Source of the DNA: an uncultured Neisseriales bacterium
GTDB lineage: Bacteria; Pseudomonadota; Gammaproteobacteria; Burkholderiales; Aquaspirillaceae
Direction of reading: 5' to 3'
Length of the DNA: 40,295 nt
Assembly (NCBI GenBank): GCA_937871815.1
Contig: CALMOJ010000195.1
Span: 1 to 40,295 of the forward strand
Part shown: in pieces, positions 2,896-25,197 of the stretch
Layout: each line of letters opens with the position of its first letter
How positions within the stretch are numbered: the first letter of the stretch is position 1
Notes under the pieces: model-generated
What the model saw: the letters and a program-made list of their open reading frames with translations, nothing else
What the model was told of the DNA's origin: nothing
Database searches by the model: none
Position numbers and translations under genes: made by a program

Positions 2896-3888
2896 TTAAA
2901 GCCCAACCTGCCCCACACCATAGCAAGCCACGCCTTCCGCCACGCTCAATAGAGGAGCGGTATAGCCCGCTGCGCGGAGACGGCTAATGTCAGCCTCGGT
3001 ATAGCTTTGGTACTTACCTTTGAGCGCCTCGGGAAAAGGAATGTACTCAATCACCCCTTCTGCGACCAATACTTCTAGCGATTGCGGGGGCAGTCCGGCA
3101 GCGTATCGGCAGGCATTGACCGCCGCCACCGCCACATCGTTAAACGGCTGGGCGCGTCCGGTGCCAAGGTTAAAAATGCCTGATTTTTCGGGGCGGTCAA
3201 GGAAAAACAAATTGACCTTGACCACATCCTCAACAGACACAAAATCCCGCATTTGCCCGCCATTAGGATAGCCATCGTTGCCCGCAAAAAGCTTGACCTT
3301 GCCGGTGTCGCGATACTGGTTGAAATGGTGAAACGCCACCGAGGCCATCCGGCCTTTGTGCTGCTCGCGGGGGCCGTAAACATTGAAATAGCGGAAGCCG
3401 ACTACTTGTGCCGTGCGCTGGTCAAAACGGCGACGAACCACTTGGTCAAACAGAAATTTAGAGTAGCCATAGACGTTGAGCGGCGATTCGCAGGCACGGT
3501 CTTCTCGGAAGATTTGCCCGCCGCCATACACCGCCGCACTGGACGCATACAGCAGAGGAATCGCCTCTTGCTGGCACCAGTCAAACAGGTCTAGCGTGTA
3601 TTGGTAGTTGTTGGCCATCATGTACTGGCCATCGTGCTCCATGGTGTCGGAGCACGCCCCTTGGTGCAGGATGGCGCGGATTTTGCGGTCGTAGTGACCT
3701 GCTTTTAGGCGGGCGAGAAAGCAGGTTTTGTCTACATAGTCAGCGATGTCGCAATCGACCAAATTGCGGTATTTGGGGCCGTCGGTCAGGTCATCGACCG
3801 CGATAATATTGGTTTCGCCACGCAAATTCAGGGCTTTGACCAGATTTGAGCCAATAAAACCAGCGGCACCCGTCACAACGATAAACAT
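2896..3888 (-). CDS. hldD: ADP-L-glycero-D-manno-heptose-6-epimerase
   Basis: This 330-residue cytoplasmic enzyme converts ADP-D-glycero- to ADP-L-glycero-beta-D-manno-heptose, the activated heptose for the LPS inner core. The N-terminal Rossmann motif [11 protein letters not shown] binds NADP and the SDR catalytic pair is in YGYSK. The ENGA-type epimerase signatures [18 protein letters not shown] and [11 protein letters not shown] are present. Length is typical. I place the start at the ATG (3888-3886) before FIVVTGA, with GGAG nine bases upstream; an in-frame TTG five codons earlier overlaps that SD and is unlikely. Its presence indicates heptose-containing LPS or LOS. Confidence 0.95.
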
Positions 3889-16315: not shown

Positions 16316-16828
16316 TCACATCTTCTCGTCTTTCAACACCCCCCCATCCAGCCGCACGGTATCGGGGGTAATGTCCTTAAAGGCAAACACCTTGCCGCCA
16401 AAATCTTGGGCAAAACGTGCTGCATCTGCCGCCAAGGCAAAACTACCCAAGGTCGGTCCCATGCTGCCTTCGCGCTTGCTGCCCACCACATAAAACGCTT
16501 GGCGGGCATCCACCCAATAATCTTTGGGATGCGCCCAGTCGGCTTTGGCCATGTCCTGCACAAACACCCCACGCACCCGCCGCTGTTGCTCCGGCTGCAA
16601 ATAGAGCGACAGCAGCTCGACCGTATCGCAAAAATAGTCGGTCTCGCCGTTATCGTACTGAATCTGCCCCTTAGGGCCAGGGTAGTCCGCCAGCACCATG
16701 CCATCGAGGGAACACACCGTGTCGTTGTGGGGGGCTTTGGCGGTCACCACGGTGTCTTGTTTGCCGCCACAGGCCAGCAACACACTCAACAAGCCAAGGG
16801 TGATTACCCGAGCAGGCCATTTACGCAT
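16316..16828 (-). CDS. nosL: Copper lipoprotein NosL
   Basis: This 170-residue lipoprotein binds Cu(I) and helps deliver copper for the CuZ cluster of nitrous-oxide reductase. A signal sequence ends in lipobox LLAC (Cys20). The metal motif CSLDGM and following DYPGPKGQI are the form common in clade I nos operons, and DYWVDARQAFYVVGSKREGSMGP is a family signature. Its ATG overlaps the nosY stop by one base (TAATG), so it is translationally coupled. It is the last gene of the nosRDFYL run. Confidence 0.94.
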   Translation of the reverse strand: MRKWPARVITLGLLSVLLACGGKQDTVVTAKAPHNDTVCSLDGMVLADYPGPKGQIQYDNGETDYFCDTVELLSLYLQPEQQRRVRGVFVQDMAKADWAHPKDYWVDARQAFYVVGSKREGSMGPTLGSFALAADAARFAQDFGGKVFAFKDITPDTVRLDGGVLKDEKM

Positions 16829-17646
16829 TATTTAAATCTCCAAATTGCCAAGGCAAGAGGGCCGACAATCCATGCCACCATCACCCCGCCCAAAAGCAGG
16901 GGATTGGCTAAGGACTCGGGAAAAACCGTCGCCAGCCCATACAGGCTTTGCACTTCGGCCATGCTAAAAATATTCAGGATGCGGAATACATCGGCAGGGT
17001 TAAACAGCAGCGCGTAGGCCGCAAACTGGCTATTGACCTCGCCCGCCGAGGCCACCAACAGCCCCAGCAGCAGCAAATCAAACACCAGCACAAAGGCAAA
17101 CCACGCGCCAATCGCCAAACCGGAGGCACGGGTGCGGTCGCTGGCCAGCACCGAAATCAACAGCGCGATGCTTAAAAAGCTCAAGCCCAGCAGCAAGGCA
17201 GACAGCACAAACCCTGCGTAGTGATAGAGCGCGTTGGCATCGAGCTGCCAGCCCAACACCCCGCCCGCCAGCCCAAATCCACCTAAGGTCGCCACCGCCA
17301 ACGCCCCTGCCAGCCCCAGATATTTGCCCAGCAACAGCTCTAGCCGCGTAATCGGCATAGACAACAGCAGGTCGAGCGAGCCGCGTTCTTTCTCGCCGAC
17401 AATGGCATCAAACCCCAAAATCAGGGCAATCAGCGGCAGCAGGTAAATCACCAAGCTGGTCAGGCTGGCAATGGTCAGCTCAATGCCTTTAAAGCCCACC
17501 GCGCCTTGCTGTGCGCCGCCAAAATAAGCAATCAGCAAGGCAAAGGCGGCAAACACCACGCCTATCACCAGCACCCAACGGTTACGCAGGCGGTCTTGGA
17601 ACTCTTTGGCGGCAATCACCCGCAGCGGGGTCAGTTCAAAGCGCAT
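16828..17646 (-). CDS. nosY: ABC transporter permease NosY
   Basis: This 272-residue membrane protein with six hydrophobic segments is the permease partner of NosF in the NosDFY complex, which acts with NosL in maturing the CuZ site of NosZ. The start (MRFELTPLRVIAAKEFQDRLRNRW) and the KERGSLDLLLSMPITR coupling region are typical. ATG at 17646 follows AGGAGG at 5-nt spacing, inside the end of nosF (16-bp overlap). Confidence 0.94.
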   Translation of the reverse strand: MRFELTPLRVIAAKEFQDRLRNRWVLVIGVVFAAFALLIAYFGGAQQGAVGFKGIELTIASLTSLVIYLLPLIALILGFDAIVGEKERGSLDLLLSMPITRLELLLGKYLGLAGALAVATLGGFGLAGGVLGWQLDANALYHYAGFVLSALLLGLSFLSIALLISVLASDRTRASGLAIGAWFAFVLVFDLLLLGLLVASAGEVNSQFAAYALLFNPADVFRILNIFSMAEVQSLYGLATVFPESLANPLLLGGVMVAWIVGPLALAIWRFK

Positions 17647-18593
17647 ACAGCCTCCTGATGAGTAGCAAGCAGCGGCGAGGCGGTGCGGATATGGGACAAA
17701 AACACGTCCTCTAAACTGGGTTCGCGGAAGGCGATGTCTTGCACCGCCTCACCGAGTTGGGTTAATACCGCCAGTGCGGCGCGTTTTTTGTCGCTGGGGC
17801 ACAGCACAATCAGGGCGGCAGGCGTTTCGCGCAGGTCGTCAAACCCCGCCAAAGCCAGCTGCGCACGCAACGCGGGGCGGGCACTGGCCGCCGCCGTCAG
17901 GTGGATTTCGAGCGGCAATTGAATCGCGCTGGACAAGGCGGCCACCGTGCCAGTGGCTTGCAGCCGCCCCGACTGCATCAAGGCGAGGGCATCGACCCGC
18001 TGTTGAATCTCCGCCAAAATATGCGAGGTCAAAATCACCGTGCTGCCAGCGGCTTTAAGCTCGGCAACCAAGGCGTAAAAATGGTGTATCGCTTCGGGGT
18101 CGAGTCCGTTGGTCGGCTCGTCCAAAAACAGCAAGCGCGGATTCCCCAGCAGGGCTTGGGCAAACCCCAGCCGCTGACGCATCCCTTTGGAGTAGTCCCG
18201 CACCCGCCGCTTGCCAGCATGGATCAAGCCGACTTTATCCAGCAGCGCGGGGCAGCTTGTAGGGTTTGCGCCTTTGAGTCGGGCAAAAAATTGCAGCGTT
18301 TCTAGCCCGCTCAAATTATCGTAGAGCACGATGTTTTCGGGCAGGTAGCCAATCATCCGGCGCACTTCTCTAAACCGCGCCCCACTAACCCGCTCGCCCT
18401 CAATCAAAATTTCGCCGCTACTGCTGGGAATCAGCCCCAGCATCATCTTAAACAGCGTGCTTTTCCCTGCGCCGTTGTGCCCAATCAGCCCAAATACTTG
18501 TCCCGAGGCGATGCTCAGGGTCAGGTTATCGACCGCCGTAAAATCGCCGTAATGCTTGCTGACCTGTCGCAGTTCAATGACGTTGCTTGTCAA
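17631..18593 (-). CDS. nosF: ABC transporter ATP-binding protein NosF
   Basis: This 320-residue ATPase has Walker A GHNGAGKST, signature YSKGMRQRL, Walker B LLFLDEPTNGLDP and the H-loop TSHIL, followed by a C-terminal extension of about 100 residues usual in NosF. It powers NosDFY. The start codon is TTG (18593), with GGAG eight bases upstream; no in-frame ATG precedes the conserved N-terminus. It overlaps the nosD 3' end by 20 bp. Confidence 0.94.
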   Translation of the reverse strand: MTSNVIELRQVSKHYGDFTAVDNLTLSIASGQVFGLIGHNGAGKSTLFKMMLGLIPSSSGEILIEGERVSGARFREVRRMIGYLPENIVLYDNLSGLETLQFFARLKGANPTSCPALLDKVGLIHAGKRRVRDYSKGMRQRLGFAQALLGNPRLLFLDEPTNGLDPEAIHHFYALVAELKAAGSTVILTSHILAEIQQRVDALALMQSGRLQATGTVAALSSAIQLPLEIHLTAAASARPALRAQLALAGFDDLRETPAALIVLCPSDKKRAALAVLTQLGEAVQDIAFREPSLEDVFLSHIRTASPLLATHQEAVCALN

Positions 18594-19836
18594 TCCAGTT
18601 TCTCCAATCGGGGTGGTGAGGGGTCATGGCGGGGTGTCTATCCACCACGCTGGGGACGCGCAACAGCGGAAACTGCCGTGCCACCATGCGCAGGGTTTGC
18701 ACCGCTGGACTATTCAGCAGCAGCTTCATAAACGGATGCTGCCACGTCAGCCGGTCCACCACATCCGAGGCTTCGTAAGGCACATCGCCAAAGCCGTCGC
18801 CATCGCGGTCCCAGCCCACATAGTTGCTCCAGTAGTTGCCCTGCTGTGCGCCCCAGATTTGGTCACGGCTGGCGACGTAGCGGACTTGGTCGCGGTTCTG
18901 GATAAAGTCATTCCCATCCACTTGGTTGCGAAAAGACCCCGCCCACAGGTGAACGCCAACACGGTTGCCCATCACCAAATTATTTTTGAGGGTGTTGTAT
19001 TCGGCATCGTAGATAAAGAAGCCTCGGTTATTGCCCACTACGATATTGCCTTCGACGACGGCATCTTGAATCGTCCGCAGCATAATGCCGTGGTCGGTAT
19101 TGCCCCACGCGATGTTGTGCCGCACCACTTGGTTACGCACCTCCATCAAGGCCAAGCCCCCTCGGTTGAGATAGCTCTCGTTGTATTCCCAGACGTTGTA
19201 ATACGAGTTCATGTAGTGCGTGCCGTAGCGCACATGGTGCATTTTGTTGTGGCTAAACAAGGCCTTGTGCGACACATCGACATAAATCCCATCCCGCGCA
19301 AAGCTGATGCGGTTGCCGACAATCTGTGCGCCGGTGGTGTTGTAAAGCTGAATGCCGTTGCCCCGCTGCGAAGACTGGTAATCTCGCTTGCCGGTAATCA
19401 GGTTGCCCTCAATCCGCACATCGTTGACCTTCTCAATCCACAGTCCAAATAGCACATTGGCGAAGTCACAGTGCAAAACGCGGGCGCGGTGTGCCCCAGG
19501 AAACAGGTAAACCCCCGCTTGCTGCAGCCCTAAATCACCGCCACTGTCGCGGATAATCCAGCCCTCAACGGTCACGTCCGGTGCTGTCACCCGAATTACA
19601 TCGCCTTGGTTGCCGCCAGAGAGGGTGGGGCGGTGCTCGCCAATCAGCGTCAGGGGCTTATCTATCAGCAGATTTTCGGTATACACCCCCTTTGCCACCC
19701 GAATGGTGTCGCCTGCAGCGGCTTTGGCGATGGTTTCGCCGATACGTTGCCCCGCCTCCACCCGCCATGTGGCAGCCACGCTAGGTAGGGCGGTGCAAAG
19801 GAGGGTGGCAAGAAGGGCAAGAGGGGCGAACGTCAT
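18574..19836 (-). CDS. nosD: Periplasmic NosD, beta-helix copper-site maturation protein
   Basis: This 420-residue protein has a Sec signal (MTFAPLALLATLLCTALPSVAA) and a right-handed parallel beta-helix made of repeated segments such as GNRISFARDGIYVDVS, MHHVRYGTHYMNS and GNIVVGNNRGFFIYDAEYNTL (CASH/PbH1 repeats). NosD receives copper from NosL and acts with NosFY in CuZ assembly. The C-terminus has DQIWGAQQGNYWSNYVGWD, a family signature. The ATG at 19836 begins one base after the nosR stop; the same frame stays open into nosR but that part is not coding. Confidence 0.95.
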   Translation of the reverse strand: MTFAPLALLATLLCTALPSVAATWRVEAGQRIGETIAKAAAGDTIRVAKGVYTENLLIDKPLTLIGEHRPTLSGGNQGDVIRVTAPDVTVEGWIIRDSGGDLGLQQAGVYLFPGAHRARVLHCDFANVLFGLWIEKVNDVRIEGNLITGKRDYQSSQRGNGIQLYNTTGAQIVGNRISFARDGIYVDVSHKALFSHNKMHHVRYGTHYMNSYYNVWEYNESYLNRGGLALMEVRNQVVRHNIAWGNTDHGIMLRTIQDAVVEGNIVVGNNRGFFIYDAEYNTLKNNLVMGNRVGVHLWAGSFRNQVDGNDFIQNRDQVRYVASRDQIWGAQQGNYWSNYVGWDRDGDGFGDVPYEASDVVDRLTWQHPFMKLLLNSPAVQTLRMVARQFPLLRVPSVVDRHPAMTPHHPDWRNWIDKQRH

Positions 19837-19837
19837 C

Positions 19838-22006
19838 TTATTCCTTCGCGGTCTGCGGGTTAAATTCCCCCGTCTCGCTTTTGATTTCCTTGATGGGGAT
19901 AAAGTAGCCATCCGCGCCAATCGGGGTAAGCGGCTCGCCAGCTTTTTGCCGACGTTTGCGTTCTTGCGCCAGCGGCGGGCAGGCGTGGTCGTCGTAATAC
20001 AGCACCATGCAGTCAAGGCACAGCATACATTCTTGCGGGTCAATCCGGCCTTGGGGGTCAATGGCGTGTGCGCCGCAGCCCACCGCGCAGGCTTTGCAGT
20101 GATTGCATTCCGCTTTGCGCTTGAGCCCAAACCGCCGCAGCTTGGCGGGTATCGCCAGCCCTGCACCCAAGGGACACAGGTATTTGCAGAACGGGCGGTC
20201 GGACAGCAGGCTCCACACCGCCAGCACGCCCCAAAACAGCACAAACGGCCAAGACCGATTCCACACCCCGACGAGGAACGTGGTCTTAAATGGCTCGACT
20301 TCGGCAAGCTGCTCGGCCAAGCCCATCGAATAAAACGACACCCCAACCAAGCCGACAAAAATAGCGTATTTCAGCCATTTCAGCCGGTGATGCCACACCA
20401 TCGGCAGGGAGAATTGGAACCGCTTCAGCCCGATTTTGCCGCCCAGATTAAACAGCAGTTCCGACAGCGAGCCGTAAGGGCACAGCCAGCCACAAAACAG
20501 CCCCCGCCCCCATAGCACCAAGGTTACGGCGATAAACACCCAGAACAGGAAAATCAGCGGGTCGGAGAGAAACAAGCTCCATCGCCATTCGCCAAACACG
20601 CCATGAATCAAAGTTAGCAACTGGGTGACCGAAGGCTGGGCCAGCTGCCAAAATCCGACAAAGCCGACGCTAAACAGCCAAAACACCGTACGCGGCCACT
20701 TGATAATCCGCTTGTCGCCCCGCTTGGCGCGACGTTCCCAGCGGTCACGCAGGGCGTAAAACCCCGCCACCAGCAGCAAAAAGCCGACAAACACGGCAAT
20801 TTCAATCTTCTTACCTTTCCACGCCTTGAGCCATGCAGGGTCGGCATGGGTCACAGAAGGCCGCCCGCCCTCTAGCCACGCGGCAGGCAGCCAGTATTCC
20901 TGTTCAAAGTTGGCAAAGGTGCGCTGGCCGGTATCTTTGTCTAGCGTATTACCCAAAAAGGCGAGGCTCCACGGGTAGGCGGCAGAAAAGCCTTGCTTGC
21001 TGCGAACGATGAAAATAGCGGACTCGGTATAGCGCGGCGCACCGGCGGCATTCACAGCGTAAAGGTTGAGGTAATCGGTATCGCGGAAGGTAAAGGTGTC
21101 ACGGTCTTGTTTAAGCTGCACGCGGTCATACATACCACCGCGCACAAAGCCCGACCCCTTAAACGAGGCTTCGCCATTAGCAATGATAAAAATAGCGTGT
21201 TCGTCAGGGCCTAGCCGCTGCATCAGCTGGGCATAGGCGGATTCGCCCAGCACGCTTTTACCAGCAGTAGGGTGGTTGAGATAGCCAAAATACAGGTCGA
21301 TATACGGCTTGCCGGTATCAGGCTCACCCACTTGGCTGGGCTTGACCGTCAGCCGCTGCACAATGCCTTGCTGCAGCAGCGCGTCCCAATCCAAGGGCTT
21401 GCCGAGGTCGATAAAGCGGGCGGGGGGCTTGGGCACGGCTTTGACAATGCCCGCTTGCTTGGCGATTTCGTAGCTGGTGCGGGAAATAAGCTGGTTTTGG
21501 GCGATTAGGGTGACGGTCGCCCCAGAGATTGCCGTCATCGGTACATAGTCGCCTTCGGCTTTGCCCAGCTCAAACCGCGTACCGGCGGGGTGGTGCAAAT
21601 ACTGTCCAACGTAATCCAGCAGTTTTTGTTCGGGGATGCCGACCAGCAAAATTGGCTCACTGTGCTTCAGAATCCGTATTCCACTAATGACACCGGTTTC
21701 GTCCATCCCGACGAGAGTCACAATTGGCTTACCCGAATAGGCGGGAATGTCAGATACGTCGGTGGATAAATACACATAGCCCACCAGCACTTTTTCGCCG
21801 TTAACGGTTTTGTAGCCTTCAACGTAAGGCGGTCGCCCTTTGCGGGGGGAGAAGGTCTCGGCGGCGGGCAACACGTCTCGGCAGTCTACGTGTTGGCACA
21901 TTTGGGGGTCAGAAAACAGCTTAGGCGGCAAAGGGGCTTCGTAAGACAAGGCCCAAGCCGCCCCCGCCCAAAACCACAGCACTATTAGATAGATAAACCG
22001 AAACAT
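19838..22006 (-). CDS. nosR: Nitrous-oxide reduction regulator/electron donor NosR
   Basis: This 722-residue inner-membrane flavo-iron-sulfur protein is required for nosZ expression and activity and is thought to pass electrons from quinol to NosZ. Sequence order: a signal-like first helix; a periplasmic FMN-binding domain (about 60-200) with SGATVT, whose Thr would carry covalent FMN; about five membrane helices; two cysteine motifs (CGWLCP and CKYLCP); and a C-terminal ferredoxin domain with CNHCKACAVGC and CMLCLDC. Length matches clade I NosR. It is first in the tightly packed nosRDFYL series and lies about 100 bp after the cytochrome gene. No apbE/nosX flavin transferase is in the window. 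Confidence 0.95.
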   Translation of the reverse strand: MFRFIYLIVLWFWAGAAWALSYEAPLPPKLFSDPQMCQHVDCRDVLPAAETFSPRKGRPPYVEGYKTVNGEKVLVGYVYLSTDVSDIPAYSGKPIVTLVGMDETGVISGIRILKHSEPILLVGIPEQKLLDYVGQYLHHPAGTRFELGKAEGDYVPMTAISGATVTLIAQNQLISRTSYEIAKQAGIVKAVPKPPARFIDLGKPLDWDALLQQGIVQRLTVKPSQVGEPDTGKPYIDLYFGYLNHPTAGKSVLGESAYAQLMQRLGPDEHAIFIIANGEASFKGSGFVRGGMYDRVQLKQDRDTFTFRDTDYLNLYAVNAAGAPRYTESAIFIVRSKQGFSAAYPWSLAFLGNTLDKDTGQRTFANFEQEYWLPAAWLEGGRPSVTHADPAWLKAWKGKKIEIAVFVGFLLLVAGFYALRDRWERRAKRGDKRIIKWPRTVFWLFSVGFVGFWQLAQPSVTQLLTLIHGVFGEWRWSLFLSDPLIFLFWVFIAVTLVLWGRGLFCGWLCPYGSLSELLFNLGGKIGLKRFQFSLPMVWHHRLKWLKYAIFVGLVGVSFYSMGLAEQLAEVEPFKTTFLVGVWNRSWPFVLFWGVLAVWSLLSDRPFCKYLCPLGAGLAIPAKLRRFGLKRKAECNHCKACAVGCGAHAIDPQGRIDPQECMLCLDCMVLYYDDHACPPLAQERKRRQKAGEPLTPIGADGYFIPIKEIKSETGEFNPQTAKE

Positions 22007-22109: not shown

Positions 22110-22511
22110 TTACTTAACCTTGCTGACCATAAACTCAACCGTTGCCTTGATTTCAGCATCGGTGAGGGCAGGATTGCCACCCTTGGGCGGCATCATGCCT
22201 TTTTGGCCGGTGTAGCCTTCGGTGGCGTGTTTCAGCAACAAGTCCATGCCTTGCTCAACCCGCCCAACCCAGTCGTCTTTCTTGCCCAAAATCGGGGCTC
22301 CCCCCATGCCCGATTGATGGCACATCGCACAGGTTTTTTTGAATACCGCTTCGCCTGGACTGATTTCGGCATTGGCCACCGGTGCAGCAGGGGCGGGGGT
22401 GGTCACAGCAACTGGGGCGGCGGGCGCTTCGGTTTTGGGGGCTTCTTTGCCGCACGCAGACAACAACACAGCCAGCGCAAAAGCAGACAGAACAAGGGGA
22501 GAGGGCTTCAT
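22110..22511 (-). CDS. Lipoprotein cytochrome c (c5-like), nos-associated
   Basis: This 133-residue protein has a lipoprotein signal with lipobox LLSAC (Cys20), an Ala/Pro-rich linker (about 22-48) and one mono-heme domain with CAMCH at 61-65 and a likely Met ligand in GMMPPKGG (about 106-107). That pattern fits class I c5-type cytochromes. Its position between divergent nosZ and nosR, sharing the FNR-type site, suggests it is the electron donor to NosZ CuA (inference). ATG at 22511 has GGAG upstream. The longer open frame to the left of the ATG crosses the promoter and is not coding. Confidence 0.88.
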   Translation of the reverse strand: MKPSPLVLSAFALAVLLSACGKEAPKTEAPAAPVAVTTPAPAAPVANAEISPGEAVFKKTCAMCHQSGMGGAPILGKKDDWVGRVEQGMDLLLKHATEGYTGQKGMMPPKGGNPALTDAEIKATVEFMVSKVK

Positions 22512-22589
22512 GGGGGGGCTCCAGGCGGCAACGGCTGAACCGTTATTTTTTAAGGGCTTCCAGCCTAGTCGGACTGGGGTTTGGCTTAC

Positions 22590-22603
22590 TTGACCGTCAT
22601 CAA
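22590..22603. promoter_or_regulatory. FNR/DNR-type operator between nosZ and the cytochrome-nosR genes
   Basis: TTGACCGTCATCAA matches the FNR/DNR/NnrR consensus TTGATnnnnATCAA at 9 of 10 defined bases. Its centre is about 32 bp from a TAGCTT on the nosZ side (22626-22631) and from a TAGGCT on the cytochrome side (22567-22562, minus strand). This is the spacing of a class II (-41.5) site for either promoter. It implies low-oxygen or NO-responsive control. Confidence 0.75.
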
Positions 22604-22711
22604 GGATAAAAAGCAAGGCGAGATTTAGCTTTGCGGCATAGTAGGAGGTGCGGCAAATTGTCGCACGCCTTCCGACACCTAATCAGACTTGTCACCCCAA
22701 AGGGAAGCACC

Positions 22712-24649
22712 ATGGATACCAAGCACACCCCCGCGACACTCGAACCGCTTGACCCTAGCCGCCGCCACTTCCTCAATACCAGTGCCCTTGCTGGTCTGGC
22801 AGGCGCGGGCGTGTCGCTCGGCCTTGTTGGCTGCAACAAAGAAACCCCTGCTGCCGCGCCCGCTGCAGCAGCTGCTAAACCTACCGAAGCCGCCCACGGC
22901 AAGTTTGAAGTCGCCCCAGGCCAGCTAGACGAGTACTACATCTTGTCCAGCGCGGGCCACAACGGCGAAGTGCGGATTTATGGTTGCCCATCGGGTCGCA
23001 CCCTGAAGCGGATTCCAGTATTTAATACCGATTGCCTCGTCGGCTGGGGCATCACCAACGAATCCAAAAAAATCATGGGCACCAAAGCCGATGGCAGCCT
23101 GAAGTTCACCACCGGTGACACCCACCACGTCCACGGCTCTTATGTTGATGGGACTTACGATGGCAAATACTTTTGGGTGAATGACAAGCTCAATAGCCGT
23201 GTGGCGCGTATCCGTGGTGACACCATGGAAACCGACAAAATCACCGACATTCCGAATGTGATGGGTCAGCATGGCTTGTTCCCTGACAAGCGCGACCCCG
23301 TAGACGAAAAAATCAACCACACGACCCGCGTGTTTGCCGGTGGCGAATTTGCTATTCCGCTGCCTAACGATGGGCACGATACGGAAGACGGCAGCAAGTA
23401 CGGCTGTCTGTTTACCTGCCTTGATGCCGAGACCATGGAAGTCAAATGGCAGTGCCGTGTCGATGGCAACATGGACTTGGTGGCCACTAGCTACGACGGC
23501 AAGCTGGCCGCCGCCAACCAATACAATACCGAAGGCGGGCTGAAGTACGAAGACATGATGTCGGCAGAGCGCGATGCGTGCGTGTTCTTCAATGTGGCGC
23601 GTATCGAAGAAGCCATCAAGGCCGGTAAAGTCACCACACTGGGCACGTCCAAAGTGCCGGTGGTAGATGGTCGCGCCGCAGCCAACAAAGACCCCAAAAC
23701 CGCGCTAACCTGCTATGTGCCGGTACCTAAAAACCCGCACGGCGTGAACGCCAGCCCTAACGGTAAGTATTTTGTCTGCTCTGGCAAGCTCTCGCCGACC
23801 GCGACCGTGATTTCGATTGAACTGGTGACCAAGTGGTTTGCCGGTGAAGTGACGACCCCCCGCGATGCCGTGATTGCCGAGCCAGAAATTGGCCTAGGCC
23901 CCTTGCACACCGCGTTTGATAACAAGGGCAATGCGTACACCACCTTGTTCTTGGATAGCCAGATTGTGAAGTGGGATGTCGAAGCCGCCATCAAGCAGTT
24001 CAAGGGCGACAAGGCCGTCAAAGTGGTCATCGACCGTATTGATGTGCATTACCAGCCAGGCCACGGCTACACCTCGATGGGCGAAACCAAAGAAGCCGAT
24101 GGCAAGTTCTTTAACTCCGGCAACAAATTCTCCAAAGACCGCTTCTTGCCGGTCGGGCCGCTGCATGTGGAAACCGAACAGCTGATCGACATCTCTGGCG
24201 ACAAGATGAAGCTGATTCACGACCACACCGCCTACCCCGAGCCGCACGATGCCATTATCGTCCGCCGCGACCGCATCAAGACGCGGCAGGTCTACAACAT
24301 GGACGAGTTCCCCAATGCCGTGACCGACCCCAAGAGCCAAAAGGTCGAACGCAACGGCAAAAAAGTGACTGTGTTCATGGCCAGCCAAGCACCGGCCTTC
24401 TCGATGCGGGAATTCCGCGTCAAGCTGGGTGATGAAGTCACCATTATCTTGACCAACCACGACAAGGTAGAAGACTTGACCCACGGCTTTGGTATTCCGC
24501 TCTATAACGTCAACTTTATTGTGAACCCACAAGAAACCAAGTCAGTGACGTTTAAAGCGGACAAGCTGGGCGTGTACTGGTGTTATTGCACCCACTTCTG
24601 CCACGCGCTCCACTTGGAAATGCGGAGCCGGATGATTGTTGAGAAATAA
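22712..24649 (+). CDS. nosZ: Nitrous-oxide reductase (clade I type)
   Basis: This 645-residue periplasmic enzyme reduces N2O to N2, the last step of denitrification. The N-terminus has a twin-arginine motif (SRRHFL, residues 16-21), a hydrophobic stretch, then LVGC, a lipobox-like site, and an Ala/Pro linker. The beta-propeller supplies candidate CuZ histidines in DTHHVHG, GQHGLFP, KNPHGVN, GPLHTAF, QPGHGYT and PEPHDA. The C-terminal cupredoxin domain has the CuA ligands Cys626, Cys630, His634 and Met637 in CTHFCHALHLEM. ATG at 22712 follows AAAGGGA. It is transcribed away from the other nos genes and ends at a strong terminator. Confidence 0.97.
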   Translation: MDTKHTPATLEPLDPSRRHFLNTSALAGLAGAGVSLGLVGCNKETPAAAPAAAAAKPTEAAHGKFEVAPGQLDEYYILSSAGHNGEVRIYGCPSGRTLKRIPVFNTDCLVGWGITNESKKIMGTKADGSLKFTTGDTHHVHGSYVDGTYDGKYFWVNDKLNSRVARIRGDTMETDKITDIPNVMGQHGLFPDKRDPVDEKINHTTRVFAGGEFAIPLPNDGHDTEDGSKYGCLFTCLDAETMEVKWQCRVDGNMDLVATSYDGKLAAANQYNTEGGLKYEDMMSAERDACVFFNVARIEEAIKAGKVTTLGTSKVPVVDGRAAANKDPKTALTCYVPVPKNPHGVNASPNGKYFVCSGKLSPTATVISIELVTKWFAGEVTTPRDAVIAEPEIGLGPLHTAFDNKGNAYTTLFLDSQIVKWDVEAAIKQFKGDKAVKVVIDRIDVHYQPGHGYTSMGETKEADGKFFNSGNKFSKDRFLPVGPLHVETEQLIDISGDKMKLIHDHTAYPEPHDAIIVRRDRIKTRQVYNMDEFPNAVTDPKSQKVERNGKKVTVFMASQAPAFSMREFRVKLGDEVTIILTNHDKVEDLTHGFGIPLYNVNFIVNPQETKSVTFKADKLGVYWCYCTHFCHALHLEMRSRMIVEK

Positions 24650-24756: not shown

Positions 24757-25197
24757 ATGCAGCGAAATTTTTGGCAGCGATGGGCAGGGCTGGGGCTGGT
24801 ATACCTCGTCAGCCAAGCCGCGTGGGCATTAGACGTGACGGTCAGTGAGGCGTGGGCTTACCGTACCCTGCCCAACTACAAAGCCACCATCGCCTGCCTA
24901 TCGTTCACCCCCCGCCAAAGCGGTACGCTGACTGGGGTACGCACCTCGGCGGCACGGTTGGTCGAACTACACCACACCCAACGTACCGAAACCAGCCTGA
25001 CCATGCGCCGCCTGCCTAACCTTGCCTTGGTGGCTCATCAAGCCGTCACCATGCGGCCAGATGGGCTGCATATGATGCTGATTGGGCTGCCCACCCCGCT
25101 GGCAAGCGATAGCACCTTCACCCTGACCCTCGATTTTGTCGATAGCAAAGGCCAAGTATCCCAGCAACAGGTGCAAGCACAGGTCAAAGCCCCCTAA
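24757..25197 (+). CDS. PCu(A)C-family periplasmic copper chaperone
   Basis: This 146-residue protein has a signal peptide ending QAAWA and then a single PCu(A)C domain. The Cu(I) motif H-x(n)-M-x(n)-H-x-M is visible: the His pair in ELHHTQ, Met in SLTMRRL, His in VAHQAV and Met in the GLHMML region. Family members insert copper into CuA sites of oxidases. Placed just after nosZ, it probably supplies the NosZ CuA centre (inference). A strong SD (GGAGGAAGG, 24745-24753) precedes the ATG. Confidence 0.85.
   Translation: MQRNFWQRWAGLGLVYLVSQAAWALDVTVSEAWAYRTLPNYKATIACLSFTPRQSGTLTGVRTSAARLVELHHTQRTETSLTMRRLPNLALVAHQAVTMRPDGLHMMLIGLPTPLASDSTFTLTLDFVDSKGQVSQQQVQAQVKAP

Follow-up and report, generated by a model that had tools for sequence, protein, structure and literature searches.

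A single FNR/DNR-type site as a candidate shared activator site for divergent nosZ and cytochrome-nosR promoters in a Neisseriales bacterium

In an uncultured Neisseriales bacterium, the nitrous-oxide reductase gene nosZ and a small cytochrome gene followed by nosR are oriented away from each other, and the 200-bp region between them carries one palindrome resembling the binding sites of FNR and DNR regulators. This arrangement raises the question of whether one activator site can serve both transcription units, and whether their expression is coupled as a result. Here we report an analysis of a 40,295-nucleotide stretch of this genome (hereafter the window), together with a comparison of nosZ loci from related bacteria. 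We examined the site, its candidate promoters and the regulators that may bind it, as well as a second palindrome found on the nosZ side only.

Gene layout of the nos locus

The following genes were assigned in the window by comparison with protein families and by conserved synteny.

16316..16828, minus strand: nosL-like lipoprotein gene, assigned by position and conserved synteny only, with tblastn homologues beside nosY in relatives and no NCBIfam match
16828..17646, minus strand: nosY-like permease gene, assigned by synteny and tblastn in relatives
17631..18593, minus strand: gene for a nosF-like ABC ATPase (ABC ATPase families), with syntenic homologues in nos clusters
18574..20358 (open reading frame as listed), minus strand: nosD (TIGR04247, 447 bits, cut-off 300)
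19838..22006, minus strand: nosR (NF046105, 622 bits, near full length but below the curated cut-off of 1000)
22110..22511, minus strand: gene for a small c-type cytochrome with a lipoprotein-like N-terminus (Cytochrome_CBB3 and Cytochrom_C Pfam families, above cut-off), the first gene of the divergent unit
22712..24649, plus strand: nosZ, Tat-dependent (clade I) nitrous-oxide reductase (TIGR04244, 998 bits, cut-off 625)
24757..25197, plus strand: gene for a PCu(A)C copper chaperone, downstream of nosZ (PF04314, 8e-21)

The NosD domain begins at about residue 207 of the listed reading frame, which places the true nosD start nearer 19740. Between the cytochrome gene and nosR lie 103 bp in which neither a terminator nor a promoter is predicted, a gap consistent with co-transcription.

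For the comparison, nosZ loci were taken from a genome collection and by searching the order and two families, which gave 122 loci after filtering, with start codons chosen by rule. The divergent position of nosZ, which the original prediction had set against the usual nosRZDFYL operon, is indeed present in this genome but is not peculiar to it, as a cytochrome gene is divergent from nosZ in 42 of the 122 loci. The genes behind this cytochrome differ among lineages. Among the loci read, nosR-nosD-nosF follows it only in this genome and in Xanthomonadaceae; nosR-D-F-Y-L forms a separate unit beyond the cytochrome in one genome of the same family, one of the same order and Pseudogulbenkiania; and most Burkholderiales have nosR downstream of nosZ. 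The varied gene order suggests that a shared box joins nosZ with the cytochrome gene in general and reaches nosR in some lineages only. The genome of the same family has two nos clusters, the same in gene order, and in both a shared box separates the cytochrome gene from nosZ.

The intergenic site, its candidate promoters and their conservation

The intergenic region contains the following elements.

22530..22544, no strand: short inverted repeat AACGGCTGAACCGTT (as read on the plus strand) followed by ATTTTTT, in the predicted cytochrome 5' leader; terminator-like for plus-strand transcripts
22562..22567, minus strand (AGCCTA on the plus strand): TAGGCT, candidate -10 hexamer of the cytochrome-nosR unit, predicted start ~22555
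22590..22603, no strand: FNR/DNR-type box TTGACCGTCATCAA (exact sequence), common to both divergent promoters
22626..22631, plus strand: TAGCTT, candidate -10 hexamer of nosZ, predicted start ~22638
22649..22665, no strand: palindrome TGCGGCAAATTGTCGCA resembling an operator, immediately downstream of the predicted nosZ start

A sequence check of the region confirmed the near-consensus FNR/DNR-type palindrome and its coordinates, with its centre at 22596.5. It reads TTGAC-N4-ATCAA, one mismatch in ten defined positions from TTGAT-N4-ATCAA; the window has no other perfect TTGA-N6-TCAA, and the intergenic region holds no further copy with one mismatch. Across the 2.34-Mb genome, about 17 of the TTGA-N6-TCAA matches listed have the better Y/R inner pair, a density at which such a box is unlikely to fall in this 200-bp region by chance (~0.0015).

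The original prediction had also placed a TAnnnT hexamer about 32 bp to either side of the box, and the centres of TAGCTT and TAGGCT each lie exactly 32 bp from the box centre. When a class II activator is centred at -41.5, the -10 hexamer (-12 to -7) is expected 32 bp away, so that both sides fit class II spacing, with starts at about 22638 (plus) and 22555 (minus). In 19 of 23 FNR-activated Escherichia coli promoters with known starts, the site is near -41.5 (PMC3688515). Both hexamers occurred at exactly 32 bp with a frequency of 0.0001 in shuffled flanks. Taken alone, the two hexamers are weak as -10 elements, each matching TATAAT at three of six positions, and a generic sigma-70 scan of the intergenic region, which is uninformative for activator-dependent promoters, returned no -35/-10 promoter, as expected if both promoters depend on an activator. 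These candidate hexamers become convincing through the comparison with relatives. The 22530-22544 hairpin was considered as a conserved leader element and rejected, as many relatives have repeats of some sort but these differ in sequence and position, and one at the corresponding place is not a consistent feature.

A perfect box was found upstream of nosZ in 67 of the 122 loci, and a non-redundant set of 63 perfect boxes (<85% identity over 114 bp) was used to measure the frequency of TAnnnT as a function of offset. The only peak is at 32-33 bp. It appears on the nosZ side whatever the layout, and on the cytochrome side where a cytochrome is divergent but not elsewhere. With the locus under study left out, TAnnnT stands at 32/33 bp on the cytochrome side of 10 of the 22 divergent boxes and 1 of the 40 others (Fisher p=5e-5, an optimistic value because the rows share ancestry). 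Local shuffles gave an expectation of 0.9 for the divergent boxes, an enrichment of about 11-fold that none of 2000 shuffles reached, and the same side of non-divergent loci is at chance (1 observed, 0.98 expected). On the nosZ side the hexamer is present in 14/40 non-divergent and 5/22 divergent boxes, against about 1.4 and 0.7 in shuffles. With a looser -10 definition, both sides are filled in 10 of 22 divergent boxes and in none of the 40 others.

Boxes with both hexamers were found in Vogesella, a Lysobacteraceae MAG, Pseudoxanthomonas, Xanthomonas sp. XNM01 and a genome of the same order, and their flanks have diverged. Pseudogulbenkiania and most divergent Burkholderiales keep the box without a clear cytochrome-side hexamer, and one Xanthomonas has two separate boxes. 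The proposed class II geometry on both sides of one box is thus conserved in relatives with the same layout, and its cytochrome-side half is absent where no cytochrome is divergent; this lends strong comparative support to the two-sided reading, which we regard as largely supported at the level of sequence.

The genome encodes both a true FNR and a DNR-like protein, the only two clear HTH_Crp_2 proteins in the 99.8% complete assembly, where a third, weak match falls below cut-off. FNR (NF008365, 252.7 bits, cut-off 228) has the cysteine cluster CSNCSLRELC (CxxC-x5-C), a further cysteine in VCELP and the recognition helix ETVSR. The best solved relative of the second Crp/Fnr protein is DNR of Pseudomonas aeruginosa (3dkw, 3e-33); this protein is without the N-terminal cysteine cluster and has an ETLSR helix. 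Similar boxes at nirS, nnrS/dnr, hemN/fnr and ccoG indicate that a regulon exists. Two of them, fnr/hemN (3346-3359 of locus L100) and dnr/nnrS (2046-2059 of locus L101), lie singly between divergent genes. As further bidirectional cases they were rejected, since neither has TAnnnT at 32-33 bp on either side; a looser CAnnnT fits the hemN and nnrS sides only. The dnr/nnrS box is about 20 bp from the start of the dnr reading frame and may be repressive for dnr. By its two-sided candidate hexamers, which have no counterpart at these two divergent pairs, the nosZ box is special within this genome.

A second palindrome on the nosZ side

The palindrome TGCGGCAAATTGTCGCA is the sole perfect match to TGCGRCA-N3-TGYCGCA in the genome. 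Its centre is 60.5 bp from the box centre, at about +19; in relatives the distance is usually 44-55 bp, near the predicted start. Palindromes of this type recur at nosZ of many Betaproteobacteria: the core GCG[AGT]C-N5-G[ACT]CGC occurs in 29 of 120 nosZ upstream regions, with 0.65 expected, and in 23 loci the cytochrome side has none within 110 bp. In Zoogloea, Rhodocyclaceae and related nosZ promoters (five loci), a second and often weaker palindrome lies 16 bp downstream of the first.

Copies of this palindrome with no more than one mismatch are located about 85-145 bp upstream of genes for TonB-dependent copper receptors (TIGR01778, oprC/nosA) in 13 of 30 loci, a count reached by 0 of 300 shuffles of the 400-bp upstream region. 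In this genome, copies with one mismatch precede oprC and a PCu(A)C gene, and a weak copy with two mismatches is upstream of the RegB-like kinase gene regB (loci L207, L220 and L221 for the three copies, the last being G000:C116:3500-9500). A regulator gene beside oprC was sought in the palindrome loci, and no neighbour family was shared among them; literature searches with the palindrome sequence returned unrelated sequence matches only.

Since the palindrome is on the nosZ side only and recurs at nosZ and oprC/nosA, nosZ is probably also regulated separately from the cytochrome side, and the palindrome, lying so near the start site, may act as a gate for nosZ only. The core GCGGC-N5-GTCGC at 22650-22664 agrees with the RegA/PrrA core GCG-N-C ... 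G-N-CGC, and a RegB/RegA-like pair is present below the curated cut-offs (169.7 against 250 for the RegA-like protein). A regulator of RegA/PrrA type and a copper regulator are equally possible. Because the palindrome also precedes oprC/nosA and a PCu(A)C chaperone gene, we consider it an even bet that TGCGRCA-N3-TGYCGCA is a second operator of the nosZ half, bound by a regulator coupling N2O reductase to the supply of copper. If so, the shared box would switch on both halves of the locus, and a copper- or redox-linked factor would gate nosZ alone.

Proposed mechanism, alternatives and known systems

We propose, with a probability of about 0.77, that 22590-22603 is a single class II FNR/DNR-type site activating two back-to-back sigma-70 promoters. 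A dimer of FNR in the absence of oxygen, or of DNR in the presence of nitric oxide, would bind the box and, positioned at -41.5, would place polymerase on either side. From the predicted starts, nosZ would be transcribed on the plus strand and cytochrome-nosR-nosD-F-Y-(L) on the minus strand, both units being induced by the same signal through one common activator. The predicted start sites are about 83 bp apart and polymerase covers roughly -55 to +20; two polymerases would therefore overlap at the box, and a single binding event probably activates only one of the two directions. At divergent promoters with a single CRP site, two polymerases reportedly cannot sit together. The two units are thus probably co-induced but in competition, rather than fired simultaneously. 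The earlier suggestion that one site synchronises both halves is retained as regards co-induction and the conserved geometry, but needs qualification: the halves probably compete, as the CRP precedents suggest, and with a palindrome on nosZ only they need not move together.

Three other readings were weighed against this one. An unlikely reading is that only nosZ depends on the box, with the cytochrome-nosR unit constitutive or under its own promoter and the minus-strand TAGGCT a coincidence: the nosZ-side arrangement is indeed frequent with or without a divergent cytochrome, and several divergent loci are without the cytochrome-side hexamer, but that hexamer is enriched at 32-33 bp in the divergent relatives alone, which argues against coincidence, and the cytochrome gene has no other predicted promoter nearby. 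That the site serves mainly another regulator of the Crp/Fnr family, and not FNR or DNR, is improbable; TTGA-N6-TCAA is recognised by several Crp/Fnr subfamilies, but the nearly complete genome yields only the two clear HTH_Crp_2 proteins described above.

The box could also be used asymmetrically, activating one side and repressing or road-blocking the other. There is an engineered precedent, in which CRP at -40.5 of an acrA promoter blocked acrR, and polymerase competition can let activation of one direction repress the RNA of the other (PMC12825309). The activator-type spacing is the same on both sides of the present box, however, and both products serve one pathway, which makes this reading doubtful, slightly more so than a nosZ-only box. 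Activation in both directions from one class II site is therefore the reading that we prefer.

In these bacteria a strong greenhouse gas has its enzymatic sink in N2O reductase, and N2O release is affected by whether synthesis of the enzyme keeps pace with that of its electron donor and of the proteins that load it with copper. With a one-site divergent promoter, the coupling of nosZ and its helper genes would be fixed in the DNA, and the nosZ-only palindrome, common to the copper receptor genes, points to a regulon that would link copper supply with N2O reduction. In the open literature searched we found no description of such a regulon, nor of a box shared between nosZ and a divergent cytochrome-nosR unit.

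The elements of the proposed arrangement do have known counterparts. DNR sites upstream of nosZ are known in betaproteobacteria (PMC1274295), and an FNR box near nosZ has been described in Pseudogulbenkiania (PMC5017806); these DNR/FNR-dependent promoters of Beta- and Gammaproteobacteria share the upstream FNR-type box and activator-type spacing, with boxes reported per gene. The bidirectional promoters of Warman et al. (2026, PMC12825309), where activation of one direction can suppress the other, likewise combine divergent transcription with possible polymerase competition, but share a single -10, whereas the present promoters share the activator site and have a -10 each. The nosZ-side palindrome carries the core of RegA/PrrA/RegR-type redox sites (GCG-N-C-spacer-G-N-CGC), whose RegA/PrrA consensus is degenerate (PMC4263372), but it is tighter than these and common to copper receptor genes. 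The closest likeness is to the single-site CRP divergent promoters, of which 11 E. coli pairs have been listed (PMC3105977, citing El-Robh and Busby 2002): one dimer of the CRP/FNR family sits between back-to-back promoters and is used both ways. The present case differs in its predicted FNR/DNR-type box, its two denitrification units and its -41.5 spacing on both sides, a geometry that appears conserved across two groups, Neisseriales-type bacteria and Xanthomonadaceae. Judged from these sequence comparisons, the nosZ/cytochrome box is a largely supported further case of single-site divergent activation, a kind of regulation already known.
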